Source of the DNA: Gallionella sp.
GTDB taxonomy: Bacteria > Pseudomonadota > Gammaproteobacteria > Burkholderiales > Gallionellaceae
Reading direction: 5' to 3'
Assembly (NCBI GenBank): GCA_030645535.1
Contig: JAUSNM010000015.1
Location: 1 to 64,000 of the forward strand
Length of the DNA stretch: 64,000 nucleotides
The notes under the pieces were generated by a model. It was given only the letters and a program-made list of their open reading frames with translations. It did not search any database and had not been told where the DNA came from. A program made the translations under genes and the position numbers. The first letter of the stretch is position 1. Every line of letters starts with the position of its first letter. Shown in pieces: positions 16,355-62,292 of the stretch.

Positions 16355-16359
16355 GATGG

Positions 16360-42798: not shown

Positions 42799-43122
42799 AT
42801 GAGCAATATATCAGCAATCGATGGTTTAATGGCGCAAATGCGCGTGGCAGCGGCAGCAGCCGGTTTGCGGGAACCCGCGCCTTTGGCACAGCCGGGCAAG
42901 GTGGACTTCGCCAACGTGCTGAAGAATACGCTCGATGGCGTGGCGCAAGCACAACAAAAATCCGAAACATTGCAAACGGCGTTTGTAATGGGCGACGATA
43001 AGGTAAGTTTGAGCGACACCATGATCGCCATGCAAAAAGCCGGCATCAATTTCCAGGCCACCGTTCAGGTGCGCAACAAGGTCGTGCAGGCGTACAACGA
43101 CATCATGAATATGCAAGTTTAA
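42799..43122 (+). CDS. fliE: FliE, hook-basal body complex protein
   Basis: 107 residues. VDFANVLKNTLDGVAQAQQKSE and the end block VSLSDTMIAMQKAGINFQATVQVRNKVVQAYNDIMNM are conserved FliE. It joins the MS ring to the rod. Single gene on the plus strand, divergent from fliF. Confidence 0.96.
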   Translation: MSNISAIDGLMAQMRVAAAAAGLREPAPLAQPGKVDFANVLKNTLDGVAQAQQKSETLQTAFVMGDDKVSLSDTMIAMQKAGINFQATVQVRNKVVQAYNDIMNMQV

Positions 43123-43443
43123 TAGGCAGTTGAAAAAAACATTATATTTACTCGTTTTGGTAAAATAGCATCATTGTGAAAGGGATTAATGGCAATGCTA
43201 GACGTTTACCCGCAAGAGCGGGTAAGGGGAATAAATTAGCCTTTTCAGTAGCCTGATAGAATAGGCGTCATCAAAGCACCTCCTCCCACACCGGTCAAAC
43301 TAACCAAAAATCCTGTCATTGCTCCGGCAAGGGCATATGACGGTGCGATCATAAGCGTAGACTCCAGTTAAATTAGGTGTTATTCCATAGACGAACCACG
43401 AAGGGCAAACGGCACACAATTGATTGGCCAGCGCTATAGTGCC
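43123..43443. other. 321-base gap between fliE and cysNC
   Basis: Contains a perfect 8-bp hairpin TTACCCGC-AAGA-GCGGGTAA at 43206-43225, which could end either the fliE or the cys transcript, and a truncated exporter gene (next entry). Nothing else with coding signal. Confidence 0.6.
43245..43352 (-). pseudogene. Truncated start of a TauE/SafE (TSUP) sulfur-compound exporter
   Basis: 35 codons with intact start: MIAPSYALAGAMTGFLVSLT followed by GVGGGALMTPIL, then SGY and a stop. GFLVxLTGVGGGxLMTP is the first-repeat signature of TSUP (TauE/SafE) transporters, which are normally about 250-270 residues. A GGAG stands 8 bases before the ATG. It is the next gene after cysNC on the same strand, 91 bases on, so a sulfite/sulfonate exporter once probably ended this operon. 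No later part of the family was found in the other frames to 43123. Confidence 0.7.
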
Positions 43444-45351
43444 TCAAGCCAGCGTCGCGATTTGTGCGATCATTTTGTTTACAGCCTCTTCAATACACTC
43501 AACCCCGTTATTAACTGTCACATCAGGTGCCAGCGGTACTTCATAAGCACTGCCAACTCCCGTAAGATTCGGCAACTGACCGGCTCTGGCTTTTTTATAC
43601 AAACCCTTCACATCGCGCTGTTCGCATATCTCCAGTGAGGTACTCACGTATACTTCAACGAAATTCTCTGTACCTATGAGATCGCGCGCCATCTCACGTT
43701 CACGACGGAACGGCGAGATAAAGGCGGTCATAACAATCAGACCTGCATCCATCATTAACTTGGAAACTTCCGCAATGCGACGGATGTTTTCAACTCGATC
43801 GGCATCTGTAAATCCCAGATCCTTGTTCAATCCACCTCGCACATTGTCACCATCGAGTATATAAGTACGATAACCTGTGGCGTGCAACGCCACCTCCAGC
43901 GCATTGGCAATAGTCGACTTTCCTGAGCCCGACAGCCCAGTGAACCATATCACCTGGCCTTTATGCCCATTCAGTTTTTCGCGCTCTGCGCGGCCAACAT
44001 TGAGTGCCTGCTTGTGCACATTTTGTGCTCGCCGCAGACTGTGAGTGATCATACCGACCGCCACGGTAGCATGACTGAATCTGTCCACCAGAATGAAGCC
44101 CCCCAGAATCTTTGACAGCGCATAGGTGTCGCACACGATGGGTTTACTCAGTGAAATATTGCACACACAGATGTCATTCATTGCCAGCTGCCGGGCCGCC
44201 TCATGCGCCAAGGTATTAACTTCTATTTTATGCTTGATCGAACTGATGGATGCCGATACCCATTGCGTCGCGAGTTTCAAATCATAGCTACGCCCAATCA
44301 GCCCGTCCTCTTCATCCATCCAAACCAGGGTGGCTTCAAACTGATCGGTCATCTGTAACGGTTTTTGCGCGAGCGAAATAACATCACCACGCGAAGCATC
44401 GATTTCCCTGTCCAAAGTCAGGGTCACGGCTTGCCCTTGGAGTGCTGCGGTTAAGGAACCATCCATCGTCACGATATCCGCAATTTTGGCGGTTTGCCCC
44501 GATGCCGTAATCCGGATTTCATCACCGATGCCAACGCTGCCTTCAACCATGCTTCCAGAAAATCCACGAAAAGCAGAATCGGGGCGATTAACCCATTGCA
44601 CAGGAAAAACCAGTCTGTCAGACACAGGCTGGATAAAATCTACAGTTTCCAGATACCCCATCAGGGTCGGGCCAGTATACCAATGCGTCTTGGGCGAACG
44701 CTCGATAATATTGTCCCCCTTAAGTGCGGATACAGGAATGGAGGTGATCGACTGAAAATTCAGAGTCAGCGCAAACACCTTAAAATCTTCGCAAATATGC
44801 TCGAAAATGGTAACGTTATAATCCACTCTGTCCATCTTGTTAACAGCCAGCACCACATGACGTATACCCATGAGAGACACCAGATAAGCATGGCGACGGG
44901 TCTGAGTCAGCACGCCTTGTTTGGCATCGACCAGGATCACCGCAACATCCGCAGTGGATGCACCTGTAATCATGTTGCGAGTATATTGCTCATGACCTGG
45001 TGTGTCAGCCACAATGAATTTCCGCTTATCGGTAGCAAAAAAACGGTAGGCGACGTCAATGGTAATGCCCTGTTCGCGCTCTGCCGCGAGTCCGTCAACC
45101 AGCAAGGCGTAATCGATTTCATCGCCCTGAGTGCCATATTTTTTTGAATCCTGTTTGAGTGACGCCAGTTGATCCTCAAATAACTGTTTGGATTCCCATA
45201 ACATGCGTCCGATCAGCGTGCTCTTGCCGTCATCCACACTACCGCAGGTAATAAAGCGCAGCAATTCCAGCTTTTGCTGGCGTGCAAGGAAGGATTCCAA
45301 GGTGTCGGGTTGTTTGGCTGTTTGTCGCTTCGCAGATGATTTTTTGCGCAT
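43444..45351 (-). CDS. cysNC: CysN-CysC fusion: sulfate adenylyltransferase GTPase subunit / APS kinase
   Basis: 635 residues. The GTPase domain has [16 protein letters not shown] (P loop, about 36-51), [12 protein letters not shown] and NKMD; the APS-kinase domain begins near 470 with [19 protein letters not shown] and contains [18 protein letters not shown]. With CysD it makes APS, and the fused kinase makes PAPS. The fusion resembles NodQ of rhizobia, which serves a sulfotransferase. Its ATG overlaps the cysD stop by one base. A sulfotransferase gene lies directly upstream of cysD, so dedicated PAPS supply is likely. Confidence 0.95.
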
Positions 45352-46787
45352 CAGAAATATCCCGCCTGTTTTTTCTTTTCCATGGATGCTGCCGAATCTG
45401 CATCTATTGCACGCCCCTGGCGTTCGGAACTGTTCGTACCGAGCAGTTCGAGTATGATTTCGGGCAGCGTTTGGGCTTGCGACTCAACGGCACCTGTCAG
45501 CGGGTAACAGCCGAGCGTACGGAATCTCACCCGGCGCCGCTGTATCACTTCACCCGGCAACAGGCGCATACGCGCATCATCCACCATCAGCATGGTGCCG
45601 TCGCGCACTACAACCGCTCGCTCCTTCGCAAAGTACAGAGGTACGACGGGAATATTTTCCTGATAAATATACTGCCAGATATCTAGCTCGGTCCAATTCG
45701 ACAAGGGAAACACACGTATGCTTTCTCCCTGGTTTTTCCGGGTGTTGTAGAGATTCCACACTTCCGGCCGTTGACGCTTGGCATCCCATTGATGGGTCGC
45801 TGTGCGAAACGAAAAAATTCGCTCCTTGGCTCGTGACTTTTCTTCATCGCGACGCGCTCCACCGAATGCGACATCAAATCGATAGTGATCAAGCGCCTGC
45901 TTCAGCCCCTCTGTTTTGGTGATATCCGTATGCAACGAAGAGCCGTGATCAAACGGGTTAATATCTTTGGCAATCGCTACCGGATTAATATGCACCAATA
46001 AATCCATGCCGCTAACTTGAGCCATGTAATCGCGGAACAAATACATCTCCTGGAATTTCCAGCGCGTATCCACATGAAGTAAGGGGAAAGGAGGTTTTGA
46101 GGGATAAAATGCCTTACGCGCAAGATGCAGCATAACCGCACTATCTTTACCCACTGAGTACAGCATGACCGGATTTTCCGCTTCGGCAACGGCTTCGCGC
46201 AGAATCTGTATGCTTTCAGCTTCCAACCTTGCCAGATGTATGGCTGCAATGTGATGTTTGCTAGTCAAAGAGGACTGGCTGCTCAAGTCCAGGACCGGCG
46301 GATATCCAAGCATACAAAATGTGATGTCAGGTAAACCACCGCTGCGTCTGCACCAGGCCGTCAGCTCACCATGAGGGACAATGGCAATAGGCCTGTTCAA
46401 GTGAGTTTGCAAGGAGCTCAACGCATCTTCAATTGCCTCCTGAGCGATAACAGCGAGCGGAATCCAGTAGCGCCCGCTCCGTGCATCATTAGCGTGTATG
46501 CACGCACCACCGCCCGGCAATTGATGCAACTGAACAAACAGCACTAAACTACGCCCAACCCTTGCTTCAGCGAGTTCACTTTCCAGCACGGAGGGTATCG
46601 GGGCACGCCCTGTCTCATCACGTACATCATCCGCCTTTAGTTCGCCTGGCAGAATTTTCAGGTCATGCAAACGTCGCTCAGCAGTGCGTTTTGTTTCAGC
46701 CTGCCCAAGTTTATTCAAATGTTGAAACGCAAGTTCTGTATCCCACACCTGAAAGCTGTCGAGCCCGAAGAGTTCGTTTATAGCCAT
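45351..46787 (-). CDS. cysD: CysD-like sulfate adenylyltransferase subunit with novel 180-residue N-terminal domain
   Basis: 478 residues; CysD/NodP proteins are about 300. The CysD part starts near residue 181 ([16 protein letters not shown]), with the PP-loop SVGKDS at 211-216, then [16 protein letters not shown] and the family's end block [16 protein letters not shown]. Residues 1-175 match nothing I recognise: a charged helical start, then [18 protein letters not shown], then [21 protein letters not shown]. The frame is uninterrupted across the junction and no good start with a ribosome site lies at the CysD boundary. It may tether ATP sulfurylase to the modification machinery; this is speculation. 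Confidence 0.88.
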
Positions 46788-46842
46788 GTCGCACCTATTG
46801 CCGAAATATTACTAGGCTTTGTTATCGGATTACCTCAATGTA

Positions 46843-48048
46843 TTAATCTTTTGAGGTATTTAAATGCGGCATTTTCTGTCCTGTGTATGGGTAACCCAGA
46901 AACTTAACTAACCGCTCCATCGCATCAGGTTCCTCAACGTTTAATATCAGCAAATCATCTGGTCTTTCTTTGAAATATTCTTTTACCTGGTTGTTATGAT
47001 CCTCATAGTATTGGCTGTACACATCTCGGTTATAGAGCGTTGATTTGTCTGCACCATAACTCAGCCTCAATACATCCAACATAAAACCGGGATAGCGATA
47101 ATTAAACTGACGGAGGTCGTCTGCTGTTGGGATGCGGCCTTTGCCCACAATTGCTGTGTGAAAACGTACCAGCGATCCAAACCACTGATCTACATTATTG
47201 CGTACCGTTAAAATAAACTTGGATCCTGGAAATGCATCATCCATTACCTGAAAAGTGCCATGCAAACTGAACGGAACGTCTTGGAAAGCTTGCGCCGACT
47301 GGCAATATTTGATAATTCTGCGATAATCCCGCTCTGCCCAATCAAATACAAGCATCTCGGCCTGTTCCTGATTTCCGACTGTCAATCCCAGACTTCTAAG
47401 CACATGCTCCACAGAGGTTGTACCTGTCTTGTTGGCACCGATGCAAAATACTTTTTGTTGGCTGCTATGGGCATCAGTATTGTCCGGCTTGAATTGCACT
47501 GCACGTTCCAGCGCACTGCCACTATCCTTGCCCTGAATTTGCAGCGTTGTACATAGCATGTCCCAGCCCGCTCCCCAGCTTGGGTGTTGGTCTAATAAAG
47601 GCGTTAATTTTTCTTCCAGCGCCGCATGATGTCCCGCACTGAACAAGGTTGACAGCTTAAGTTCAACCGAGAGAGCCGGGCGCTCACCCTCCACGATACT
47701 GGTTGCAAGTTGCAGCAGGTGGCGGGCTTGAGCACTATTAAAGCTTTTTTGTTCCACAGCATTTTTGATGATCTGCAGCGCATCACCCGGACGCTCCATT
47801 GTTAACAGGCATTCTGTCAGCGTCAGGCAAAATTGCTCCTTATGAGGATTGATTTTCCAGGCATTTTGTAAATAGGGCAAACCTGATGCAGGCATGCCCA
47901 CATGAATGGCTATTAAGCCAAGATTATGGTTCGCGTCAGGTTGATTTGGCTGTATTTGTAAAATGCTACGGTAGAGTTCTTCTGCCGCCTGAAGCTGCCC
48001 GGCCTGATGGCAATGCACGGCTTTTTGTAATGCGTCATTAATATTCAT
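46843..48048 (-). CDS. TPR-containing PAPS-dependent sulfotransferase
   Basis: 401 residues. Residues 6-96 are TPR repeats (AGQLQAAEELYRSILQ, ANHNLGLIAI). The sulfotransferase domain starts at 199: FCIGANKTGTTSVEHVL is the 5'-phosphosulfate loop (204-212), KFILTVRNNVDQWFGSLVRF the 3'-phosphate-binding strand-helix with Arg and Ser. The C-terminal LLILNVEEPDAMERLVKFLG is usual for bacterial carbohydrate sulfotransferases. It would move sulfate from PAPS onto a sugar or protein hydroxyl. It sits immediately before cysD-cysNC on the same strand, with a 55-base gap. The acceptor is unknown. Confidence 0.88.
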   Translation of the reverse strand: MNINDALQKAVHCHQAGQLQAAEELYRSILQIQPNQPDANHNLGLIAIHVGMPASGLPYLQNAWKINPHKEQFCLTLTECLLTMERPGDALQIIKNAVEQKSFNSAQARHLLQLATSIVEGERPALSVELKLSTLFSAGHHAALEEKLTPLLDQHPSWGAGWDMLCTTLQIQGKDSGSALERAVQFKPDNTDAHSSQQKVFCIGANKTGTTSVEHVLRSLGLTVGNQEQAEMLVFDWAERDYRRIIKYCQSAQAFQDVPFSLHGTFQVMDDAFPGSKFILTVRNNVDQWFGSLVRFHTAIVGKGRIPTADDLRQFNYRYPGFMLDVLRLSYGADKSTLYNRDVYSQYYEDHNNQVKEYFKERPDDLLILNVEEPDAMERLVKFLGYPYTGQKMPHLNTSKD

Positions 48049-48083
48049 GGTTAATGGTGTCTGGCTAAATGGTGAATCACATG

Positions 48084-48788
48084 TTATTTTGTAAGTAACA
48101 AATCGAACCGGTAATGGCTATTGATCAGGTCCGGGTGCTGACTGAGAATTGCTGCGTCGCTAAATCCGACATACTTCGCCATTTTTACCAGTATCTCTTT
48201 TTTAAACCAAGTGCCAACAGCTGGAGTATCATTTTTTACTGAATCAAAATAGGCGGTTACCCACTCCGGTTTGTTATGATAAATAAATAGGCGGTCAATA
48301 TCCAGAATGTCACCGATAAGGAACGTTCCACCCCGCATCAGTGATTGGTAAATCGTTTCGAATATGCCAATGGTTTCACGTTCACTGAAAAATTGTAGTG
48401 CAAAATACATTACTCCCTTCGAGAAAGTTTCAACTGGAAGATTAATTTTCCTGGCATCTCCTGTAACTACGGTTATATTGGAATACAAGCAGGTATCTAT
48501 TCGATTGAGCAATGTATTAGAAATATCAACAGCGGTTACCGATCGGCATTTCAACGAAAGTGGAATCGTAATCAAACCGTTACCGGCGCACAGATCAAGC
48601 AGGGTGTCATCAGGGCAAAGTTGTAATGTTTTCTCTATTTCGCTCAGGTGAAATTGCCATTTTTGTGGATCAATTGGGATTTTATTAACGGTTCGCCCTA
48701 TCTGGCATTGCGGGTCTGTATTCTCAATTATGTAATTGGTTGTCCAAAAATTTATCCAATAATCATTTTTATGTTCGGCTGAATTCAT
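48084..48788 (-). CDS. SAM-dependent methyltransferase
   Basis: 234 residues. Motif I is LLDLCAGNGLITIPLSL, followed by TAVDISNTLL and a Thr-Gly-Asp-Ala motif (VVTGDARKINLP). The N-terminal 45 residues are specific. The coding sequence is visibly richer in A and T than the flagellar genes around. It could methylate a sugar of the surface glycan made by this island; substrate unknown. Separated by 35 and 94 bases from its neighbours. Confidence 0.8.
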   Translation of the reverse strand: MNSAEHKNDYWINFWTTNYIIENTDPQCQIGRTVNKIPIDPQKWQFHLSEIEKTLQLCPDDTLLDLCAGNGLITIPLSLKCRSVTAVDISNTLLNRIDTCLYSNITVVTGDARKINLPVETFSKGVMYFALQFFSERETIGIFETIYQSLMRGGTFLIGDILDIDRLFIYHNKPEWVTAYFDSVKNDTPAVGTWFKKEILVKMAKYVGFSDAAILSQHPDLINSHYRFDLLLTK

Positions 48789-48882
48789 GCTTTTAGGTCA
48801 CTCCACTTATCAACTTACTATCTTCTCATGGGGTTCAAGGAACACTTCAATTAATGCCAATCATCCAAAAGAGACACAAATT

Positions 48883-49644
48883 TCATTCTTTTTTCCTGCA
48901 CACGGAGAATAAAGACCCACACAAATCAGGGTACTCCAAACCCAGCTTGTACAAGCCATCAATTTGATCCTGGCCAAGAATTCCTTCTTCGATAAGTTTA
49001 TCCATTTGAAAATCGGCAAGAATTTTAAGCATTAAACCGCCCTGTGCAATATTTTCAAATCCAGCCTGTTCTATATCTTTATTCAAACTTGTTCTGTCAT
49101 ACACGCGACGATGTCCATGCTTTAAATCATTAGCAGTTAATACTTTAAGATGCTCATACATTCCCATATGCATAGCAAGCTGTCTTGAAAGTGCATTGGC
49201 GTTTGGAACAACCACAAATAAAAGGCCATCATCCTTCAGGGCATCATAAGCCATACGTAAAACGTCTACCGGATGGAGAACGTGTTCCATAATGTAACTT
49301 GCTATAACGTAATCGTATTTTTTACGGGGTGAAAACTCTTCAAATAGAGAGTTAATAAAACTAATGTTGTCTATCTGTTCGGTTATTGTTCTTTCCCGAG
49401 CTTCTTTCAGAAACAGCTCGGAGCCGTCGACAACATCCAGAAAACTGACATGCCTTGACAGCATGGATGTCATGTAACCATCAGAGCATCCTAACTCCAA
49501 GCCGCGCCCGTTTTTAAGAAATGGTGAAAACGTCCGGACAATTAATTTGCGCATTTCCTTTGTTTGCAGAGAATCGTTTACCGTGTAGGCTGCGTTAACC
49601 TTGTCAAGGAATAGTTTTTCCGTCGCAAGTTCTGTATCTTTCAT
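48883..49644 (-). CDS. SAM-dependent methyltransferase (class I)
   Basis: 253 residues. GLELGCSDGYMTSMLSRH (motif I), VVDGSELFLKEAR, and YDYVIASYIMEHVLHPVDVLRMAYDAL with LLFVVVPNANALSRQL make a clear class I methyltransferase of the type found in O-antigen and flagellin-glycan loci. The C-terminal 80 residues end in a cysteine-containing DLCGSLFSVCRKKE. Likely acts on a nucleotide sugar or glycan. A+T-rich like its neighbours. Confidence 0.82.
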   Translation of the reverse strand: MKDTELATEKLFLDKVNAAYTVNDSLQTKEMRKLIVRTFSPFLKNGRGLELGCSDGYMTSMLSRHVSFLDVVDGSELFLKEARERTITEQIDNISFINSLFEEFSPRKKYDYVIASYIMEHVLHPVDVLRMAYDALKDDGLLFVVVPNANALSRQLAMHMGMYEHLKVLTANDLKHGHRRVYDRTSLNKDIEQAGFENIAQGGLMLKILADFQMDKLIEEGILGQDQIDGLYKLGLEYPDLCGSLFSVCRKKE

Positions 49645-49756
49645 AATTTCTCCAGAAAGTTAAGGGGCGGATTTAGAGTGCGCAAAACTTGGGCTTGTTG
49701 TTCTGCATTCTGCCCTTCCTTTGCATGAGAATGACAAAACGACTTCCAATAGTCCG

Positions 49757-50698
49757 TCATAATCCATTACCCTGTTTCCATTCATCCACGCAATGGCAGA
49801 TGTACTCCATGTCGTTTATGCCATACTCATGCGATACGGGAAACGAAATGACATGCTTCTCAATCCAGAGTGTTTCTTCGATGTCAAGACCGCACTCATG
49901 AACGAGATCATGGGTTGGCCAATGGATTGAAGTGAATACACCTTTTGAAGCGAGATAGGTGCGCAGGGAATCTCTCTCTTCTGGAGAAGATATAAATCTA
50001 TTGTGGAGTAACGGACACTCCTTCTGCCGATAGGTGATCTGTGGTGTGCCCACCGAAAGGTTTTGCACAAGAAACCGTTCGTTTTTTTGCCGTTTCTGAC
50101 GGATTAGAGACTCGTTTGCAGTCAGGATAATTGCCAATGACTGGCTGCCGATGTCCGCGATGCTCCAATCTCTGTCGAGCATATTCTCCGCTTCGCGCAT
50201 ATCTCGCCAATCCTTTGCTTCAAATCGTAGCCATGAATCCAATTTTCTGCTCGGTTCATACACCGGGTTGAAGAAACCCCCGAGAAACCCGCCTTCAGCT
50301 ACTGCCATTATCTTGCGGTAGCTTCCAAATACATAGTGACCCCGAGGAGCTATTTGAGACATATACGAGTGCGAAAAGTCTTCAATTAGTGTTCCTTCGC
50401 AAGGAGGCAATGCACCGACATTTTCATGTCCAAAGAAGTGAAAAAATACTAAGGCCTCTCCTTCCCGAACAAGGTCAGGATAAACACACGTCAGATCCCT
50501 CCGAACCGGATAGAACTCTAGTTCTACTTGAGGAAAGCGCCGGGACATCGCGGATACAAGCGACCAGCAAGTGAAGGTTGGCAGATATACTTTCTTTGGA
50601 CGGATGATCTGCCCGATCAGGAAGGAAAACGCCGCACGACCGGTATTGAAATATGTCTGTTCGACTCTCTGGGGAAGTAACTTGCTTCCGATTAACAT
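49757..50698 (-). CDS. DegT/DnrJ-like aminotransferase-fold protein (atypical, short)
   Basis: 313 residues. The N-terminal part lacks about 30-50 residues compared with DegT enzymes. FNTGRAAFSFLI and KKVYLPTFTCWSLVSAM correspond to the cofactor-binding start; LIEDFSHSY has the PLP-pyridine aspartate, and FGSYRKIMAVAEGGFLGG has the candidate Schiff-base lysine. The C-terminal half (GVFTSIHWPTH, VISFPVSHEYG) also fits the fold. It may transaminate a keto sugar or act in a related reaction. Start overlaps the preceding small gene by 7 bases. Confidence 0.7.
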   Translation of the reverse strand: MLIGSKLLPQRVEQTYFNTGRAAFSFLIGQIIRPKKVYLPTFTCWSLVSAMSRRFPQVELEFYPVRRDLTCVYPDLVREGEALVFFHFFGHENVGALPPCEGTLIEDFSHSYMSQIAPRGHYVFGSYRKIMAVAEGGFLGGFFNPVYEPSRKLDSWLRFEAKDWRDMREAENMLDRDWSIADIGSQSLAIILTANESLIRQKRQKNERFLVQNLSVGTPQITYRQKECPLLHNRFISSPEERDSLRTYLASKGVFTSIHWPTHDLVHECGLDIEETLWIEKHVISFPVSHEYGINDMEYICHCVDEWKQGNGL

Positions 50699-50949
50699 CG
50701 CTTATTTCCTATCTCAAAGTCACTCAATGCCTTTATGGCTTCGTGAACCAGTGTTCCTTTTTTCAGCGTCCGATAATCACCCTCAAACGTCTGCAGTAGT
50801 ATATCTCCATCGTACAGCTTGTAATTGAATATCCATTCTGAGTAATAGGATGTTGATGGTTCAGCTTCGATACGAAATCGCGTAGGCAGGCTGGATTTTA
50901 GGAACACGTAAAATTCATCGTCCCGCTCAATTGGAAACATTGCGTGCAT
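50692..50949 (-). CDS. Small protein of unknown function
   Basis: 85 residues, not recognised. It is rich in aromatic and acidic residues (FYVFLKSSLPTRFRIEAE, YYSEWIFNYKLYDGDILLQT) and may be a small beta-rich protein; there is no signal peptide, span or metal motif. A ribosome site GGAAGG lies 7 bases before the ATG and it overlaps the aminotransferase-like start by 7 bases, which supports real translation. Its place inside the modification operon suggests a partner or acceptor-recognition role, but there is no direct evidence. Confidence 0.6.
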   Translation of the reverse strand: MHAMFPIERDDEFYVFLKSSLPTRFRIEAEPSTSYYSEWIFNYKLYDGDILLQTFEGDYRTLKKGTLVHEAIKALSDFEIGNKRC

Positions 50950-50971
50950 TTTGTGCCTTCCCTGTGCTTAT

Positions 50972-51694
50972 TTATTTATCGCTAGACTCAATGGAATAAT
51001 TCTTCAAAAGATCTTTTGTGCCCTCGACGCCGTTGAACATTAATACATCAATGATCGACAAAGAAGGCTCGAAAACACACCTTTGAGAATAAACAATCTC
51101 CTGGGGTTTCAAAAAGGTGAGCTTGATGTTACTGGATGAAAACTTCTCCCGATTAAACAGCGCTGCTCCAGCAGCAGGATTGATATATTCAGTCGCCTCC
51201 ATTTGTTCGGCAATCCGAAGCGCCCACTCTCCTGCATCGCTGACATCTGCATAATCGAAGTTTTGCTCGGATGAAACAACGATCTCCTTCTTTATATCCA
51301 AATACGCGCACAACTTTTTTATTATGGCAAAGTTAATAGCAGCAATACTTTGTTCATTATTACTGAAGAGAATCTCTCTTACCAGCTCATTGGTTTCATC
51401 AAAATGACGTGCCTTTTTTTTGTAATGCGCAAGCTGTCCAATAATCAACTCTTTCCATTTTTTATCTGGATGCGCGTGCACATTTTTGATTGACTCTGTC
51501 ACAGCATGCTTTTTAAGCGGCACCAATATATATTGCCAACCTCCACCAGGTTTAAGTATTCGATTCCTGTTAACCCAGCCATGCCTCATATATTGGGCGT
51601 CATCAAATAACACAAAGTAATCTGCGGCATAGATTAACTGCCAGTAGCCAATATAGGGGAAGAAATACGGTTGCATGATGGCGATAGTCTTCAT
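50972..51694 (-). CDS. WbqC-family protein
   Basis: 240 residues. AIMQPYFFPYIGYWQLIYAA, FVLFDDAQYMRHGWVNRNRI and WQYILVPLKKHA are the start of WbqC-like proteins, found in O-antigen and flagellar glycan loci. Members are thought to act on amino sugars, perhaps as N-acyl or glycyl transferases, though the reaction is not settled. Here it follows a DegT aminotransferase by 8 bases, consistent with acting on the amino group that enzyme introduces. Confidence 0.87.
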   Translation of the reverse strand: MKTIAIMQPYFFPYIGYWQLIYAADYFVLFDDAQYMRHGWVNRNRILKPGGGWQYILVPLKKHAVTESIKNVHAHPDKKWKELIIGQLAHYKKKARHFDETNELVREILFSNNEQSIAAINFAIIKKLCAYLDIKKEIVVSSEQNFDYADVSDAGEWALRIAEQMEATEYINPAAGAALFNREKFSSSNIKLTFLKPQEIVYSQRCVFEPSLSIIDVLMFNGVEGTKDLLKNYSIESSDK

Positions 51695-51702
51695 TCGCCA
51701 GC

Positions 51703-52821
51703 CTAATCTGCAATTAACTTGAGAATGAAATCAACTGGCTCATTTGATAAGTCCGGATAAATCGGCAGGCAAATCACTTCACTTGCGGCTTTACGCGCGA
51801 CAGGTAAATTTTCATGTGCGGACGACGCCATCCTGCGGTACATCGGGAAATCGCTTATCAGCGGGTAGAAGTAACGCCGCGCAAAGATGCCGTTATCCTG
51901 CAGTTTTTGATACAGCGCATCGCGACTGAGCGGATAGTCCTGCTGCACCAGAATCGGGAAGTAGGCATAGTTGGCTATACGCTCGCCTGCATCGACCAGG
52001 CAGTGTATGCCATTGACTCCAGTCAGACCTGCACGATAGCGCATATCAATGGCTTTGCGTTTTTGCAGTGCTTCATCAATGCCTTTGAGTTGCAGCAGGC
52101 CAAAGGCGGCGTTAATTTCACTCATCTTGCCGTTGATGCCGGCAGCCACCACTGTCACTTCGTCCGCAAAACCGAAGTTTTTCAGGTGATCGATGTGTCG
52201 CTTGGTTTTTTCATTCGGGCAGACGATAGCGCCACCCTCAAAGGTGTTGAACACCTTGGTAGCGTGAAAGCTCAGCACCGACAGGTCGCCGTGATTGAGC
52301 ACGCTGCCGTTCGCATCATCTACTCCGAAGGCATGCGCTGCGTCGTAAATGACCTTCAGCCCATAGTTGTCGGCAATCTGCTGGATGCGCTCCACTTCGC
52401 AGGGGTGTCCGTAGCAATGCACCGGCATGATGGCGGTGGTTTGCGGTGTGATGGCAGCCTCGATCTTGTCAGGATCAAGGTTGAGTGTGATCGGATCAAT
52501 GTCCACAAATACCGGTTTGATTCCGTTCCACAGCAGCGAATGTGCGGTAGCCACGAAGGAGTAGGGCGTGGTGATGACCTCTCCGGTGATGCGCAAGGCC
52601 TGGAGCGCGGTAACCAGTGCGAGCGTACCATTGGTGAACAGGCACAGATGCTTTACGCCAAGGTAGTCACACAGCGCCTGTTCAAGTTGCTGGTGAAACG
52701 GACCGCCGTTAGTCAGCCACTTGTTTTTCCAGATTTGCTGTAAATAGGGAATGAATTCTTCCAAAGGTGGCAACAAGGGCTGCGTCACATAAATTGGCGC
52801 AATTTTTTTAGATGCTGTCAT
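51703..52821 (-). CDS. DegT/DnrJ/EryC1/StrS-family sugar aminotransferase
   Basis: 372 residues, standard length. LFTNGTLALVTALQAL (cofactor phosphate site), IYDAAHAFGV (PLP-pyridine Asp) and LSFHATKVFNTFEGG with the Schiff-base lysine are present. It makes amino sugars from nucleotide-linked keto sugars. Its start overlaps the stop of the large glycosyltransferase by 4 bases. The partner dehydratase that would make the keto sugar is not in the window. Confidence 0.92.
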   Translation of the reverse strand: MTASKKIAPIYVTQPLLPPLEEFIPYLQQIWKNKWLTNGGPFHQQLEQALCDYLGVKHLCLFTNGTLALVTALQALRITGEVITTPYSFVATAHSLLWNGIKPVFVDIDPITLNLDPDKIEAAITPQTTAIMPVHCYGHPCEVERIQQIADNYGLKVIYDAAHAFGVDDANGSVLNHGDLSVLSFHATKVFNTFEGGAIVCPNEKTKRHIDHLKNFGFADEVTVVAAGINGKMSEINAAFGLLQLKGIDEALQKRKAIDMRYRAGLTGVNGIHCLVDAGERIANYAYFPILVQQDYPLSRDALYQKLQDNGIFARRYFYPLISDFPMYRRMASSAHENLPVARKAASEVICLPIYPDLSNEPVDFILKLIAD

Positions 52822-55238
52822 TCTCCGGCTTCCAGAGTGGTATCGGCTGATTCCTGCCGGGGTACTTCGTGCGTGATCACAGACGGAATCAGCAGGAACT
52901 CTTTGGATGTGTGGTGATCTTTTGCGGTGACCTGCGTGCCCGCTTCCAGGCGCAGCACCAGTGCCTCGACCCCAGCCCCCTGTAGCCCTTGTTGCCGGGC
53001 AAGTTCAAGTATCTGCCGTGCATCTTCTAACTGATCCGCCTGAAGCAGTGCATCGACGTAACTTAGCCAGTATTGCCCTCGTGCCGGGTCGGCATCCAGC
53101 GCTGCGATGAAATAGGGTAGGCCTGCGACAGGTTGTTGCGTCTGTACCGCTAAAAGTCCCAAGTTGTGGTTCGCTTCTGGATGGCTCGGATTGAGTTGGA
53201 GGATGCCCCGGTAGAGCGCTTCAGCTACTTGTAGCTGGCCTGACTGTTGTTGGGCTACGGCCTGGTGCAAGGCTTGCTCTATCGCCAGCTGTGCTGAAAG
53301 ATCACTTTGCAGATCACTGGTCAGGTTTACTTCGAATGATTCTGCAGGTAGTTTATCGCACCAGCGTTGCCACATGATACGCAGACCGCGTTCCACACCT
53401 GCGGCAACCACCGCTGGCTGACCCATCGCTGAATTCGCAAAACGTTCCCGCAATCCTGCCCGGATATCGGACAGTGCAGCAAGATTTTCTGCCCATGACA
53501 AACCTTTTTGCACAAAATCTGCCGCATCATGGGCAATAAAATCATCCCGGCCAACATGACCGAGAATACAGGCGCCAGGCCGACCCGCTACTGTGCAGCC
53601 CGTCAGCGTCAGTGTCGGCACGCCCATCCACTGCGCATGCAGTGTGGTAGTGCCGCCGTTATACGGGAAAGTATCCAGGCAGATATCCACCTGGTGATGC
53701 AGTGCCATGTAGCGATCCATGCCGATACGTGTATGAAAAACCAGACGTTCCCGTGCGATGCCCTCCTGCGCAAACCATTTAATCAGTGTGTCATATTTTC
53801 CTTCCTCAGGCATGCCTCCCAGTACCATTCTGGAATCAGGCAGGGCGCGCAGCAGTTGCGACCACAGAGCAATGACCGGTTGGTTTATTTTGCTCAAACG
53901 GTTGAAACTGCCAAAGGTCACATAGCTGTTGCTCAGGGCGGGAAGTGTATTGACCGCTGGTGCATGCTCGCTCGGCAAGAACGGTGCGATGGCGGGCAGA
54001 TGGACAATCTTTTCGGTGAATTGGCTGTCAAATTCACCAGGAGGCAGGAAAAATCTGTCTGCCAGATAATAGTCAATGGCGGAGAGACCCGTGGTGCCGG
54101 GATAACCCATCCAGCTGGCTTGCACCGGCGCTGGTTTTCGTGCAAAGGTCAATAAGCGATTTCTGGCGGTGTGCCCGGACAGGTCGATCAGTATGTCGAT
54201 TCCGTCGAACTGGATTTTTTCGGCCAGTGCGATGTCCGACAAACCGGCAATCGGATGCCAGTGCGCAAAACACCGCTGCAAGCGTTGGGTGACTGCGTCT
54301 TCAATGGTGTGGTTGTAGTACGCGTGGAGTGACAACTGCTCAACTCCTGCCAGATGTGACAGCACCGGTTCAATAAAAGAGGCTACTGCATGGGTATACA
54401 AATCACCTGAAACGATGCCAACCTGCAAGCAACGTTCTGGATTTCGTGAATTGGTGTGCATAGGCCAGTTTGCGCGCAGCGGGGTTTCAAACTGTTCTCC
54501 GAACTGTATGTGCTCGGCAAACAAGGTTGCCGCATCATATTTGGCGTTGTTACTGCAAACGTAGAGGAAATCGCTCTGGTAAACAGCGTTGTCAGGTTCG
54601 ATCTGCAGCGCATGACGGTAGCTGAGCTCGCTCTCCTCCAGCTTGCCCAGGGAAAAAAGGGCTGTACTCAGGTTGATATGCGCTTTGATGTAGTCAGGTT
54701 TTATCTCCAGTGCTTTGCGGCAGCTTGACACAGCATCATCAAATTGTTCACTGCGTAACATGGCAGTCCCCAGGTTGTGATGAGCCTCAGCGGAATCGGG
54801 TTTGATCTCCAGCGCCCGGCGGCAGCTCTCCGCAGATTCTGTAAATCGCCCAATGTCTCCCAGGGCGGAAGCGAGGTTGTTGTGTGCCTCGGCATCATCG
54901 GGTAAGCATTCAACTGCCTTTCGCAACGCAGCTATTGCCTCTTTCCCTTGCCTGTGAAGGAAAACCCCCAGCACCTTCCATGCGTTCCCGGATGCCGGAT
55001 GCCGGGTTAACAGTAAGCGCGTCTGACGTTCCGCTTCGGCATGCTGGCCGGCATTGAACAGGGTGACAAGCTGATTGATTTCAGCTGTTGTCGGTTGTTT
55101 TTCCGCCCTGTTGGCCTTCTTGATTTTTTGTTCAGGAGGCGCGGCAGATGCTTCAAGTTTGTCCTGGCAACATTTCTTGAATTTCTTTCCGCTGCCGCAA
55201 GGACATGGGTCGTTTCTTCCCGGTTTCACATTCACCAT
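52818..55238 (-). CDS. SPINDLY-type (GT41) glycosyltransferase with SEC-C and TPR modules
   Basis: 806 residues. Residues 6-24 are a SEC-C zinc motif (PGRNDPCPCGSGKKFKKCC). TPR repeats follow (about 50-235; AEAHNNLASALGDIGRF, AEAHHNLGTAMLRSEQF). The GT41 domain (about 250-630) has GIVSGDLYTHAVASFIEPVL, LIDLSGHTARNRLL, QASWMGYPGTTGLSAIDYYL and GRPGACILGHVGRDDFIA. A second TPR tail (about 654-740) resembles the head of the sulfotransferase at 46843. Such enzymes O-glycosylate Ser/Thr of proteins, including flagellins in some bacteria. First gene of the island operon. Confidence 0.93.
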   Translation of the reverse strand: MVNVKPGRNDPCPCGSGKKFKKCCQDKLEASAAPPEQKIKKANRAEKQPTTAEINQLVTLFNAGQHAEAERQTRLLLTRHPASGNAWKVLGVFLHRQGKEAIAALRKAVECLPDDAEAHNNLASALGDIGRFTESAESCRRALEIKPDSAEAHHNLGTAMLRSEQFDDAVSSCRKALEIKPDYIKAHINLSTALFSLGKLEESELSYRHALQIEPDNAVYQSDFLYVCSNNAKYDAATLFAEHIQFGEQFETPLRANWPMHTNSRNPERCLQVGIVSGDLYTHAVASFIEPVLSHLAGVEQLSLHAYYNHTIEDAVTQRLQRCFAHWHPIAGLSDIALAEKIQFDGIDILIDLSGHTARNRLLTFARKPAPVQASWMGYPGTTGLSAIDYYLADRFFLPPGEFDSQFTEKIVHLPAIAPFLPSEHAPAVNTLPALSNSYVTFGSFNRLSKINQPVIALWSQLLRALPDSRMVLGGMPEEGKYDTLIKWFAQEGIARERLVFHTRIGMDRYMALHHQVDICLDTFPYNGGTTTLHAQWMGVPTLTLTGCTVAGRPGACILGHVGRDDFIAHDAADFVQKGLSWAENLAALSDIRAGLRERFANSAMGQPAVVAAGVERGLRIMWQRWCDKLPAESFEVNLTSDLQSDLSAQLAIEQALHQAVAQQQSGQLQVAEALYRGILQLNPSHPEANHNLGLLAVQTQQPVAGLPYFIAALDADPARGQYWLSYVDALLQADQLEDARQILELARQQGLQGAGVEALVLRLEAGTQVTAKDHHTSKEFLLIPSVITHEVPRQESADTTLEAGE

Positions 55239-55261: not shown

Positions 55262-55348
55262 GCTTGTGGCTTGTAGCTTGTAGCCGGTAGCCACAAGCTA
55301 ATCCCGACTAACGACTAACGACTAAAGACTAACGACTAATCTTTAGTC
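55262..55348. repeat. Two joined 7-bp repeat arrays upstream of the glycosyltransferase
   Basis: First family: GCTTGTG, GCTTGTA, GCTTGTA, GCCGGTA, GCCACAA, GCTAATC. Second family from 55307: ACTAACG, ACTAACG, ACTAAAG, ACTAACG, ACTAATC, TTTAGTC. The last unit overlaps the stop codon of ycgR and supplies its final Asp codon. The ACTAACG family is the same as upstream of flgG. Confidence 0.85.
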
Positions 55349-56095
55349 TTTTATTTTGGCGCGCTGCATGGAGGTGACGTATCGTTGCAGCAGGATGGTA
55401 GACGCACCGTCAAGATTCTTGAATTCACATCCTGCACGTCGCACCGTTTTGCCGGAGGGTGTGGTTAGTAAAATCAGGTTTTTGACTTCTATTGTGCCGA
55501 AAAACTCGCCGACTTCGGGCAAATCTATTTTGCAATTTTCATAGGTATTGCCGGGAACCAGCACCGCGTCCAGCTCTGTGCAAGTAAGACCCACACCACC
55601 ACCACTGATGTCCATGATGGTGACTTCATGCGCGTGCCGCTCCACTGCTTTCTCGACCGGAATGACGCAAAGCAGGTGGTCTGAAACCGGTGTTGTCAGG
55701 CGATAGTACTCGCGGCGTTGCAGACGGTGAATGCTCTTGGGGAGTTTCAGGAAAAATGCGGGTTGGCCTTGACAGGTTGTACTCGTTGCATGGTCGGATG
55801 TGAACTGCACCTTGACCTGAGCATGCGAACTGACAAAAATGAGTTTATTGCTTTTCAGTAAACGATTGTTTTCCTGAAGTTGTTGGCTTTGATCCAGCCA
55901 CAGGCCGGAAGCATCCACAGCCAATAACGTCGTCAGAATAAATTCGTTCGCTTCAGAATAATACAGCGCGATGCGAGATCTGCTTTTGAAGATGTTCTGC
56001 AAAACAATCTCTATTTCACGGGGCGTAGTGATGCGATACTGGTCATCATCGCCGCTGGACAGGATTTCAATTTTCAGAGGGATATCTTTTTTCAT
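55343..56095 (-). CDS. ycgR: YcgR-like PilZ flagellar brake protein
   Basis: 250 residues from the ATG at 56095; a longer frame overlaps the next gene and is rejected. N-terminal YcgR domain (ITTPREIEIVLQNIFKSRSRIALYY, abbreviated) and C-terminal PilZ domain with c-di-GMP motifs RREYYRLTTP and DISGGGVGL. When loaded with c-di-GMP it slows or biases the motor. Its stop codon falls in a heptamer array. Confidence 0.92.
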   Translation of the reverse strand: MKKDIPLKIEILSSGDDDQYRITTPREIEIVLQNIFKSRSRIALYYSEANEFILTTLLAVDASGLWLDQSQQLQENNRLLKSNKLIFVSSHAQVKVQFTSDHATSTTCQGQPAFFLKLPKSIHRLQRREYYRLTTPVSDHLLCVIPVEKAVERHAHEVTIMDISGGGVGLTCTELDAVLVPGNTYENCKIDLPEVGEFFGTIEVKNLILLTTPSGKTVRRAGCEFKNLDGASTILLQRYVTSMQRAKIKD

Positions 56096-56139
56096 GTTGT
56101 TACGACTACTTTCCAAGATTGTTGCACATAATAACAAAA

Positions 56140-56436
56140 TTACAGCTGTACTATCGGGGGAAAAGCAGGGGATTCCTCGTGTTCCAGGCGATATAGCCAG
56201 GCCAGTAGTTCGGCCACGGCTAAATAAAGCTGTGGCGGAATTTGCTGATCCAGTTCCACTTGCATCAACAGCCCCACCAAATCTGCCGATTCGTGTACAT
56301 AAACCCCGTTTTGTTTGGCGCGTTCGATGATCGCCTGAGCAATCAGTCCACGTCCCTTGGCCACGACTCTTGGCGCGCCGGTACTTTGGCCATAGGCCAG
56401 TGCTACGGCGACTTGTTGCGGGGTAGGGTAGGTCAT
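56140..56436 (-). CDS. FlhB C-terminal-like small protein (FlhX type)
   Basis: 98 residues resembling the cytoplasmic C-terminal part of FlhB/YscU after the cleavage site: VAVALAYGQSTGAPRVVAKGRGLIAQAI and ERAKQNGVYVHESADLVGLLM. There is no membrane part and no NPTH cleavage motif. Such stand-alone proteins can replace the FlhB C-terminal fragment in export switching. Its ATG overlaps the stop of the FliK-like gene, suggesting they work together. Confidence 0.85.
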   Translation of the reverse strand: MTYPTPQQVAVALAYGQSTGAPRVVAKGRGLIAQAIIERAKQNGVYVHESADLVGLLMQVELDQQIPPQLYLAVAELLAWLYRLEHEESPAFPPIVQL

Positions 56437-57413
56437 GTCTTTTCAATCACCGCGCTCGTCAGCGGTACGCCCGCCTCTCTCAGTGTCATGGCAAGAGCCG
56501 GCAGTTGGCGATTAAACAGCGCGACAGAACTGGCGTCTGCACCCCGCAAGGTGAGTCTTATTCCGCCCTGGCTAAATACCAGTTTGGCATGCACATCGCC
56601 TAGCCTGGGCAGGGCGAGTTCCATTTCTGTGCTCCACTGGCGTTCATCAGGCTGTATATTGTGGTGTTCAGGCTGACCTTCAATTTCCCACTGCATCTGC
56701 TGACCGGGCCATATCGATCCTGTCCAGGTTAGTTGATGCGTTTCCAGCGTGTGCAGTTGTTGCTGCACCAGTGGCACTAATTCTTTAGCGATCGGCAAGC
56801 TTAATTCAGTCGCGGCTTTATCCGGTTGCATCGCGGGCGTTGCAGGTTGATTGTCAGTTTGTTTGTCCAGCAGGTTCTGCGGTTCGACCAGAAGTTGCGC
56901 AGTGCTACGTTCGCCACGCACCCATTGCGCCTGATGCGACTCGTAAAACAGGCCGCTGTTAGCCAGTGCATCCTTCAGGGCTACCGCCAGCTGTTTGCTG
57001 TCCGGGGCGGATCCTGTTGTCGGCCATACGGCGTGGCCTGAACTGGATTGGATGAGTGCTCTTTCCAGCGGTAGTTGGGTCAGGTTGGCCAGAAAGCGTG
57101 AAGTCGAACTGATTTGTTCCTGTGTGGCAATCGGTGTGCTGGAAGCTAAGAAGCTGAATGTCACGCGCGGGCTGGTGGCCATGACTTTCAATTCGAGAAT
57201 ATTGCCGGCTTTGAGTTGCTCCGGCAATTGCATTTGCATGGATTGGCCGGCGACTTGCACTTTGAACAGTCCGGGGCTGACTTGTTCCTGTATGGTTGCC
57301 TGTACCCGCTGACCGGGTTCGAGCTTGGTGAGGGGAGCGTTTTCGGCCAGGATCAGCGGTTTGGCTGACAGGGCGCGTGCTTGCAGTGCATTGATCAGGT
57401 TGGAGGATTGCAT
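56433..57413 (-). CDS. Second FliK-like protein
   Basis: 326 residues. The N-terminal region has LEPGQRVQATIQEQVSPGLFKVQVAGQSMQMQLPE-type sequence (cited in part) and a Gln-rich middle. The end, WSTEMELALPRLGDVHAKLVF, GGIRLTLRGADASSVALFN and LPALAMTLREAGVPL, is a FliK C-terminal-like domain. It differs from the FliK at 35922. Encoded with the FlhB-like gene by a 4-base overlap, so the pair may form an extra substrate-switch device. Confidence 0.75.
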   Translation of the reverse strand: MQSSNLINALQARALSAKPLILAENAPLTKLEPGQRVQATIQEQVSPGLFKVQVAGQSMQMQLPEQLKAGNILELKVMATSPRVTFSFLASSTPIATQEQISSTSRFLANLTQLPLERALIQSSSGHAVWPTTGSAPDSKQLAVALKDALANSGLFYESHQAQWVRGERSTAQLLVEPQNLLDKQTDNQPATPAMQPDKAATELSLPIAKELVPLVQQQLHTLETHQLTWTGSIWPGQQMQWEIEGQPEHHNIQPDERQWSTEMELALPRLGDVHAKLVFSQGGIRLTLRGADASSVALFNRQLPALAMTLREAGVPLTSAVIEKT

Positions 57414-57505
57414 AAGGTCTTAAATCTGATGTCACCTGCTATACTTACTCATCACTGAGCTTAGCGGTCGCAGCTGCCGCACGGCCCGTATCTTCATTCA
57501 GGAAC

Positions 57506-57521
57506 TGGCACTTTAGTGCCA
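57506..57521. other. Perfect TGGCACT-TT-AGTGCCA palindrome
   Basis: A 7-bp self-complementary pair with a 2-base centre in the 151-base gap between fliT and the FliK-like gene. The GG/GC spacing does not fit a sigma-54 promoter. It may be an mRNA hairpin or a protein-binding site. Confidence 0.35.
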
Positions 57522-57564
57522 CTTGCTCCATGGGAAGATCACTGCGGTGTTGCGGGTGCAGCAT

Positions 57565-57885
57565 TTACACAGCCCCGTAGGATTGATTCAGGCGTTGTTC
57601 CTGGCGTTGGCTCTGCATGACGACTTTCATCTTAGCCATCCAGCTTTCGGTGCTGTTGCGGATATAGGCATCGTCTTCGAGAATTTTCCGGATCAGTTGA
57701 ATCTCGCTTTGCCGGGAGACATCGTCAAGCGCGGCTGTCTCATCAGCCAACTTGATGTTGGCGACATGACGGCTGCACTGCTGTTCAAGATCGACCAACT
57801 TATCCCATTCGCCCTGATCCACCGCTTCGCGCATTTGGCAGGTTAAGCTGGCGAGCGATTCATAATGGTCGATGACATTGTTCAT
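57565..57885 (-). CDS. fliT: FliT-like chaperone
   Basis: 106 residues, all helical. MNNVIDHYESLASLTCQMREAV and WDKLVDLEQQCSRHV fit FliT; low sequence conservation makes position the stronger evidence: directly after fliS in fliD-fliS-fliT order. It binds FliD and can tune flagellar regulators. Confidence 0.8.
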   Translation of the reverse strand: MNNVIDHYESLASLTCQMREAVDQGEWDKLVDLEQQCSRHVANIKLADETAALDDVSRQSEIQLIRKILEDDAYIRNSTESWMAKMKVVMQSQRQEQRLNQSYGAV

Positions 57886-57894
57886 GGCATTAAC

Positions 57895-58353
57895 TTAACC
57901 TCTGGCGTAAAGCCGTCTTTCACTTTGACCTTCGGGCAAGATTGTGGGTGCAGGCACAGGTGCGATGGCCTGTGACCGTATGCTCTCCCACGCTTCTTTC
58001 AACTCACCCAGCAAGCGTGAAACTTCTTCCAGCGCAGCCATGTCGTTGTTGATGTTGGCGAACAGCAGACGTTGGCTCATATAGTCATATAACGCCGACA
58101 GGTTGAGGGCCAGTTCGCCGCCGACTTCCTTGTTCAGACTGGCATTCAGGCCAGTGTCGATGATCAGTATCGCATGAGAAATAGCTTTGCCTTTGGCGGG
58201 AATATCCTGGCGCAACATGCCGTTTTTAGCGTTGGCAATCGCCAGCAGAGCGCCCTGATACAGCATGGAAATGAGTTTGTGCGGATCGGCCGACGTTACG
58301 CCTGATTCGACCCCGACTTTGTTATATGCGCTGATAGCGGCTGATGTGCTCAT
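57895..58353 (-). CDS. fliS: FliS, flagellin export chaperone
   Basis: 152 residues. AISAYNKVGVESGVTSADPHKLISMLYQGAL is the FliS start (shown in part), and LALNLSALYDYMSQRLLFANINND the conserved core. It binds the C-terminal helix of flagellin. A proline-rich C-terminal tail (APVPAPTILPEG) is added. Nine bases separate it from fliT. Confidence 0.95.
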   Translation of the reverse strand: MSTSAAISAYNKVGVESGVTSADPHKLISMLYQGALLAIANAKNGMLRQDIPAKGKAISHAILIIDTGLNASLNKEVGGELALNLSALYDYMSQRLLFANINNDMAALEEVSRLLGELKEAWESIRSQAIAPVPAPTILPEGQSERRLYARG

Positions 58354-58367
58354 GATATTTTTCCGGG

Positions 58368-60347: not shown

Positions 60348-60361
60348 GATGACTCCTTAAG

Positions 60362-60790
60362 TTACGCCTGCTGTCTGATCAGCAAGCCTTGTGTGCTTTG
60401 CACGGGTGCTTTTGATAACGATGCCTGTTGTATTTGTTCCTGCATCAGTCCGACGGCTTTTGAGATTGCCAGCATCTGCTCGGTGGGGAACTGTCCAATC
60501 ACATCACCGGTTACCGAATCAGTCAGCTTGACCACGGCTTGTTTGGTATCCGTGTCCACACTGAACGACAGATTCTTGTTGGACGCCTGCATTGCTTTAT
60601 TGGTGTTTTCCACCGCGCTTTGCAATTGGAACTCCGACGTTTTTTGATCTGTTGTCGGTTTGATATCCGTTACAGTTTGAGATGCTGCTGTGTGAATCGT
60701 TGAGTTGGCAGCAATTGCGGGTGAGCCATCGCCAGCAGACCGGGTCGGTTCGTAAATGTGAGATGTATTACTGATGTTCTGGATAAGCAT
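60362..60790 (-). CDS. flaG: FlaG-family protein
   Basis: 142 residues. The C-terminal FlaG core is LSFSVDTDTKQAVVKLTDSVTGDVIGQFPTEQML, cited in part (NLSFSVDTDTKQAVVKL, DVIGQFPTEQ). The N-terminal half is variable. FlaG influences filament length. Located between flagellin and fliD, the usual place. Confidence 0.92.
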   Translation of the reverse strand: MLIQNISNTSHIYEPTRSAGDGSPAIAANSTIHTAASQTVTDIKPTTDQKTSEFQLQSAVENTNKAMQASNKNLSFSVDTDTKQAVVKLTDSVTGDVIGQFPTEQMLAISKAVGLMQEQIQQASLSKAPVQSTQGLLIRQQA

Positions 60791-60865
60791 TTTGCTTCAC
60801 CCTCGGTTGAAGTTGAAATCGCATGGCGGTTCCTTGTCTCCCTCGCCCGCTCAGGGGTTGGGAAA

Positions 60866-60913
60866 CGGGCATGGCGGGTATTATCAACAAGGTGCTAATA
60901 CTTGCCATGCCCG
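60866..60913 (-). terminator. Long hairpin between fliC and flaG
   Basis: 18-base arms at 60866-60883 and 60896-60913 (CGGGCATGGC...GTATTA and its complement with two mismatches) around a 12-base loop. It lies 53 bases beyond the stop of the downstream flagellin gene. There is no strong U-tract, but the stem is long enough to stabilise or end the fliC mRNA. Confidence 0.55.
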
Positions 60914-60966
60914 CTGGAAAATCCCACCTGAATTTTACACAAAATCCAAGTGGGAATTTTTAAAAC

Positions 60967-62169: not shown

Positions 62170-62248
62170 TTTAAAACTCCTTTAACAGAATATGATTTCG
62201 GCCTTATTGCCGTTTATGTTGGTTAGCTACTAGTTGCTTGTTAATTTA

Positions 62249-62289: not shown

Positions 62290-62292
62290 AAC

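Follow-up and report, generated by a model that had tools for sequence, protein, structure and literature searches.

Bases 1-64000 of a 73-kb contig of a Gallionella species (GenBank assembly GCA_030645535.1, contig JAUSNM010000015.1), referred to here as the window, hold ten genes for glycan synthesis, glycan transfer and sulfation (43444-55238, all on the minus strand) within a flagellar region. Gene content and comparison with relatives support well the view that a Gallionella flagellin glycosylation island has captured a sulfation cassette. Sulfation of flagellin or of its glycan, dependent on 3′-phosphoadenosine 5′-phosphosulfate (PAPS), is on balance its probable function. Counted for sulfation on the flagellin side are a seemingly dedicated PAPS supply, a tetratricopeptide repeat (TPR) module shared by glycosyltransferase and sulfotransferase, the flagellar location of the genes and its conservation, and the recurrence of a sulfotransferase at the same site in another genus. 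An earlier note on this DNA had proposed a sulfated glycan on flagellin with its own PAPS supply. The PAPS genes, the conserved sulfotransferase motifs and the TPR module speak in part for this proposal, with flagellin as the probable acceptor and a surface polysaccharide as the main alternative.

Organization of the island

Starting at the flagellar side, the order is ycgR, GT41, DegT1, WbqC, an 85-aa open reading frame (ORF), DegT2, the methyltransferases MT2 and MT1, a TPR-sulfotransferase, cysD and cysNC. All ten reading frames of the island are open. The genes are co-directional and the gaps among them range from -7 to 112 bases, so that they possibly form one transcription unit. On one flank stands fliE (42799-43122, plus strand; an ORF 63-78% identical to fliE of the relatives L116, L123 and L124), the island boundary, followed by fliF on the minus strand. 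On the other, ycgR, fliK, fliT, fliS, fliD, flaG and two flagellins (55343-63477, minus strand) are co-directional with one another and constitute the likely acceptor side; they are identified by Pfam and translations, the second flagellin by NCBIfam. The two tandem flagellins (60967-63477, minus strand) have nearly identical ends and divergent middles.

Glycan biosynthesis and transfer genes are embedded here among flagellar structural genes, as in a flagellin glycosylation island. The genes named in the earlier note are all present at the place it gave (ORFs, Pfam and NCBIfam matches) and both flanks, fliE and ycgR/fliTSD/flagellins, are as it described; fliK, the 85-aa ORF, a 165-aa CysD extension and a TauE/SafE remnant are additions to its list. 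The GC content is 0.39-0.44 in MT1, MT2, the 85-aa ORF, WbqC and the sulfotransferase domain, 0.52-0.54 in DegT1 and GT41, and 0.49-0.56 in the flagellar genes, a pattern as in a mosaic island.

PAPS supply and TPR-sulfotransferase

The PAPS genes are cysD (45351-46787, minus strand), encoding the sulfate adenylyltransferase small subunit (NCBIfam CysD NF009214, 527 bits, cut-off 413, from aa 169), and cysNC (43444-45351, minus strand), a fusion of the large subunit with an adenosine 5′-phosphosulfate (APS) kinase for PAPS synthesis (NCBIfam NF004035, 937.9 bits, cut-off 715). The genome has three PAPS_reduct-family matches, namely the island CysD and the adjacent CysH and CysD of contig C65. 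That contig carries a cysH-cysD-cysN cluster, in which CysN lacks the APS-kinase part. Its CysH scores above the cut-off of the APS-reductase model TIGR02055 (261.5 bits, cut-off 235.3) but below that of the PAPS-reductase model TIGR02057 (162.8 bits, cut-off 254.2). With a CysH of this type, APS can feed assimilation and PAPS should be dispensable; by these scores the CysH is not of the PAPS-reductase type that would call for the island enzymes. The earlier note would have been undermined had the island cys genes been the sole assimilatory copies, and C65 provides a separate set. Lying apart from these assimilatory copies and linked to a sulfotransferase, the island cysD-cysNC look like a dedicated PAPS supply. 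Contig C90 (L066, 1-2544) holds an APS kinase (CysC) and CysQ, together with an ORF at the contig edge whose sulfotransferase match stays below the threshold, and may be a second sulfation locus of the genome.

The TPR-sulfotransferase (46843-48048, minus strand) consists of TPRs (aa 1-about 195) and a sulfotransferase domain (aa 199-400). The latter is assigned to Sulfotransfer_4 (PF17784; 5.7e-24, 85.6 bits, cut-off 22.8, profile positions 1-213 of 215). Alignment with two relatives shows that GANKTGTTS, DVPF and KFILTVRN, which we take to be PAPS-binding and catalytic motifs, are kept. The solved sulfotransferases among the matches listed are schistosome SULT-OR chains, 9kf1 and 3rnl, all weak (E 0.006-0.3); a single-sequence structure model was poor (pLDDT 45) and was not used. 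Because whole-protein searches of relatives are dominated by the TPRs, the Pfam domain was searched alone; of 150 relatives, 19 give a match and 13 exceed the cut-off (the own genome within both counts). A scan of GTDB genome contigs with the whole sulfotransferase found no relatives.

A TPR module shared by modifying enzymes

Over residues 3-106, the sulfotransferase shares 45% identity with the additional C-terminal TPR of the island GT41 (contig C99:52974-53282). A profile was built from three copies of this module, taken from the sulfotransferase, GT41 and a TPR-methyltransferase adjoining fliE in genome G090. In 216 stretches, 47 of which hold flagellar genes, it finds 60 reading frames, 37 of which fall within those flagellar stretches. 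The 60 include the window's own protein, L124 and L134 belong to the same contig, and 45 frames have a match to the catalytic part of GT41 as well. The 216 stretches were partly chosen by TPR similarity, and a fairer test is given by 80 loci chosen by DegT1. Of these, 26 have the module, 19 of them together with flagellar genes, and of the 54 that lack it 9 have flagellar genes (Fisher p 1.9e-6); in loci of at least 15 kb (n = 56) the figures are 16 of 22 and 7 of 34 (p 2.1e-4), both p values being optimistic since the loci are related by descent. In Caulobacter crescentus, according to the accessible part of PMC7591256, the TPR domain of FlmG binds flagellins, gives specificity and is needed for efficient glycosylation. 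By analogy, we infer that the TPR module may be a flagellin-docking adaptor.

Long frames of 623-675 aa in L298, L302 and L303 give a match to the second TPR part together with a weak one to the sulfotransferase profile A4. In Gallionella, fusions of TPRs with a sulfotransferase may be frequent.

Glycan genes and the variable fliE-ycgR interval

GT41 (52818-55238, minus strand; 806 aa) is a SPINDLY/OGT-like glycosyltransferase (Pfam Glyco_transf_41, 2e-42; SEC-C) with N-terminal TPRs and the extra C-terminal module (aa about 650-764). TPR and glycosyltransferase domains in one protein near flagellins correspond to the FlmG-type architecture. DegT1 (51703-52821, minus strand; Pfam DegT 1.5e-104) is a probable sugar-nucleotide aminotransferase, nearest among solved chains to 2po3, then to QdtB and others including perosamine synthetases, and is 75-82% identical in four relatives; dTDP-4-keto-6-deoxyglucose was considered as its substrate, but no RmlB passes the cut-off in the incomplete genome. 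It is followed by a WbqC-family protein (50972-51694, minus strand; Pfam WbqC 1.1e-64; 82% identical in G007, 66% in G090) and by the 85-aa ORF (50692-50949, minus strand), which matches neither Pfam nor NCBIfam. The earlier note counted two DegT-fold proteins. For DegT1 this stands; for the divergent DegT2 (49757-50698, minus strand) the fold is suggested by weak similarity to solved sugar aminotransferases (E 0.006-0.08, best 0.0056 to 7n63) and a Pfam DegT E value of 0.13, with no Pfam match at 0.001. Of the two S-adenosylmethionine-dependent methyltransferases, MT2 (48883-49644, minus strand; Pfam Methyltransf_23 1.5e-24) has homologues in flagellar loci (L136, 52%; L270, 55%), and MT1 (48084-48788, minus strand; Pfam Methyltransf_25 1.4e-10) is 61% identical to a gene of locus L163, which holds a PAPS cassette.

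The glycan genes recur beside flagellar genes in relatives, and this core of the island is of a known kind. GT41-DegT1, mostly with WbqC, adjoins flagellar genes in G058, G076, G019, G117 and G021 (tblastn), with DegT1 75-86% identical. In a survey of named GTDB loci, limited to the best 80 of 576 confirmed DegT1 relatives (stretches of 3-21 kb), flagellar genes are found in 28, WbqC in 37, GT41 in 41 and a cys-gene match in 5. The fliE-ycgR interval is a variable slot, because just 40 bases separate the fliE match from the ycgR match in G019 (L124, same genus), whereas in L136 the two enclose 8.8 kb holding GT41, DegT1, WbqC and MT2; relative to G019, it is fair to call the island inserted, as the earlier note did. 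In G090, of another genus of the family, the interval holds the TPR-methyltransferase, DegT, WbqC (about 65%), MT1 (32%), a sulfotransferase and a GT2 glycosyltransferase. The sulfotransferase is of a different family (PF00685 5e-16, PF13469 2e-15), with 7 strong matches in 158 family genomes; matches at E up to 0.001 extend to 32 of 158, the rest being weak or partial.

An extended CysD as marker of the cassette

The island CysD carries an N-terminal extra domain of 165 aa (46293-46787, minus strand) without Pfam match, 56% identical to that of the L163 CysD. Of 399 genomes from the order 15 carry the extension, and of 158 from the family 6 (the own genome within both); it is conserved across several families of the order, in PAPS cassettes. 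Its structure model is good (pLDDT 82, pTM 0.79), with no solved fold at E <0.001 and TM-scores ≤0.40 in the best 50 of 843 matches. A viral contig scan gave no relative of the extension. CysD is matched in 357 plasmid records. In the 30 listed the match begins no earlier than residue 121 and so lacks most of the extension; one record outside these 30 spans 80% or more of the query.

Neighbours of other extended CysDs were taken from 14 other loci of the order, 12 of which were examined, the two on 7.0- and 4.2-kb contigs being excluded. A CysQ homologue is found in 9 of 12 neighbourhoods and a TauE/SafE homologue in 6 of 12. Three neighbours chosen by a PAPS-loop-like motif comprise two sulfotransferases by Pfam and one protein without match, and nine chosen by eye in nine loci comprise eight of polysaccharide type by Pfam and one ribonucleotide reductase. 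In the window, a truncated 5′ end of a TauE/SafE gene (43257-43352, minus strand) sits downstream of cysNC, toward fliE; its 32 residues are 78% identical to TauE of L232 and L238 (E 4e-9), the L232 protein matching Pfam TauE at 5.9e-43. This stub can be read as marking where the PAPS cassette was cut at its border with fliE.

Proposed pathway

DegT1, with DegT2, WbqC, MT1 and MT2, would produce an amino-deoxy sugar and add acyl and/or methyl groups to it, and the TPR-guided GT41 would place sugar on flagellin in the cytoplasm, ahead of export. CysD-CysNC would convert sulfate and ATP into PAPS. The TPR-sulfotransferase would then dock on the same flagellin via its related TPR module and sulfate either the glycan or, directly, a flagellin side chain, giving a filament that bears sulfate esters and hence added negative charge. 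A broader model, offered tentatively and somewhat less probable than its alternatives taken together, is that bacterial flagella can be sulfated, that in Gallionellaceae a common TPR docking module brings GT41, methyltransferase and sulfotransferase to flagellin, and that the fliE-ycgR interval is a slot where sulfation modules are swapped in from polysaccharide loci, one of them bringing its own PAPS supply.

Alternative explanations

Several observations weigh against sulfation of flagellin, and many of them favour a surface polysaccharide (O-antigen, capsule or exopolymer) as acceptor, the flagellar site being a tolerated insertion only, an explanation that we consider rather unlikely. The best evidence for it is L163, from a 4.9-Mb beta-proteobacterium, where GT41-like genes, DegT1, WbqC, MT1, a sulfotransferase, Wzm/Wzt and an extended-CysD/CysNC cassette stand together in a genome without flagellin match; this closest gene set found is non-flagellar. 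In G007, a DegT and a WbqC-linked sulfotransferase likewise stand with Wzm/Wzt, plus WbqC and MT1, and the same association is seen in G488, G491, G496, G502 and G503 (WbqC match in 4 of 5, MT1 in 3 of 5); Wzm/Wzt are identified by Pfam in L163 and L115, and by homology in L167 and L293-L297. The G090 sulfotransferase family is otherwise accompanied by Wzm/Wzt genes (6 of 7), so that polysaccharide-locus modules appear to enter the flagellar slot. As to the cassette, at least 8 of the 12 other neighbourhoods contain a polysaccharide-type gene, and G041 (L232, same genus) has Wzc-like and TauE genes; a Pfam-confirmed sulfotransferase is present in only 2 of 12. Flagellar genes are absent beside 18 other extended-CysD cassettes (14 from the order, 3 from the family and L163; stretches of 4-21 kb), and the cassette is seen once in a flagellar setting. 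Among the 28 flagellar DegT1 loci a cys-gene match occurs only in L187, which also has fliE, DegT1 and WbqC. There, a partial, degenerate APS-kinase-like gene (13537-14004, minus strand; Pfam APS_kinase 1.2e-20, 38% identical) containing a run of N lies near a GT41-like fragment. Neither this gene nor the L159 cysC match, a 29-residue fragment, is taken as strong support. The own genome has, besides the CysC-CysQ pair, several sugar-nucleotide dehydratase-like genes on C83 and C12, and according to the accessible part of PMC3770913 a gene cluster of Gallionella ES-2, predicted to make an exopolymer, includes a sulfotransferase. Against a polysaccharide acceptor, no ABC exporter, polymerase or flippase family is found by Pfam among the ten island proteins, although Wzm/Wzt accompany the polysaccharide versions; moreover, GT41 and the sulfotransferase bear a TPR module concentrated in flagellar loci, and GT41-DegT1 adjoins flagellar genes in relatives.

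Sulfation of flagellin also meets other difficulties. Stretches from 16 of 18 other genomes with Sulfotransfer_4 relatives show no flagellar genes nearby, so the catalytic domain on its own has no tie to flagella. In 7 of 26 DegT1 loci with the TPR module, the module lies away from flagellar genes. Such Sulfotransfer_4 relatives, the many partners that TPR domains bind and the TauE gene already cut to a stub would fit a TPR-sulfotransferase acting on another protein or a small molecule, or a captured cassette decaying without product. We regard this as improbable: the ten frames are open, the catalytic motifs of the sulfotransferase are kept, and TauE is no constant part of the cassette. For the sugar itself, no RmlB scores above cut-off in the 86.6%-complete assembly of 2.68 Mb, and the middle part of the flagellins shows no enrichment in Ser/Thr (0.21-0.23). 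The island itself lacks the CysQ found on C90, and the C65 CysH is matched as well by two broader models, NF002537 ‘phosphoadenylyl-sulfate reductase’ and TIGR00434 cysH. CysD and CysN are assimilatory in many bacteria, and the island genes might serve ordinary sulfate assimilation, standing beside glycan genes by chance. Such a role is very improbable given the separate cysH-cysD-cysN with its APS-reductase-type CysH, and an extended CysD that belongs to a distinct cassette, often with CysQ and sometimes with a sulfotransferase.

Other features of the window

A run of genes at about 8123-16516 (minus strand) encodes a ketoacyl synthase, an MMPL-family exporter and an AMP-binding enzyme, and its content suggests an aryl-polyene-type pigment cluster. 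At 3135-4937 (minus strand) lies a gene for a hybrid histidine kinase with an ethylene-receptor-like N-terminal domain (ETR1_N).

Relation to known systems and significance

In rhizobia, NodP-NodQ form an additional PAPS synthase of the CysD/CysNC type, dedicated to the linked sulfotransferase NodH, with Nod factor as acceptor. The likeness to the window is functional only, and that system is not known to have the N-terminal CysD domain or the TPRs. Closer in gene content are flagellin islands of Enterobacteriaceae (PMC4875605) and the viosamine island of P. syringae (PMC3927599), which, in the accessible parts of these sources, share with the window a GT41/SPINDLY-type transferase, DegT and methyltransferases. 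The main text of the Enterobacteriaceae survey contains neither ‘sulfotransferase’ nor ‘sulfat’, whereas the window island includes PAPS synthesis and a sulfotransferase. FlmG, as described in the accessible part of PMC7591256, combines TPR and glycosyltransferase domains for cytoplasmic flagellin modification; the likeness is one of domain type. FlmG modifies with pseudaminic acid, and the window differs in that the GT41-related TPR module is also found on a sulfotransferase. WbqC-linked sulfotransferase modules (L114/L115, L293-L297) resemble the window in having DegT, mostly with WbqC and MT1, beside the sulfotransferase; unlike in the window, their sulfotransferases are PF00685/PF13469 proteins without TPR, in loci with Wzm/Wzt. 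A swimming-filament protein with sulfated sugars is described for the archaellin of Halobacterium salinarum in the accessible part of PMC11980604 (citing Wieland 1985), in an archaeal, N-linked and unrelated filament.

No report of sulfated bacterial flagellin was found in searches of the open-access literature, where the top matches include archaeal sulfated-glycan work and no case from a bacterial flagellin; the titles listed for WbqC gave nothing of use. The main text of the review PMC3958885 has neither ‘sulfat’ nor ‘sulfotransferase’, the accessible part of PMC11044966 adds nothing on flagellin, and the sole open-access match joining flagellin glycosylation, sulfotransferase and flagellin concerns giant viruses. 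If true, sulfation of flagellin in Gallionella would be the first sulfate on a bacterial flagellin, as far as these top matches show. The uncharacterised N-terminal domain of CysD would serve as a marker by which genomes can be searched for gene clusters of the sulfation type. If the proposed reading holds, polysaccharide loci and flagellin-glycan loci exchange sulfation genes, and the shared TPR module offers a concrete rule by which enzymes that modify proteins would recognise flagellin. Sulfation of the filament would alter surface charge, and perhaps phage adsorption and attachment.

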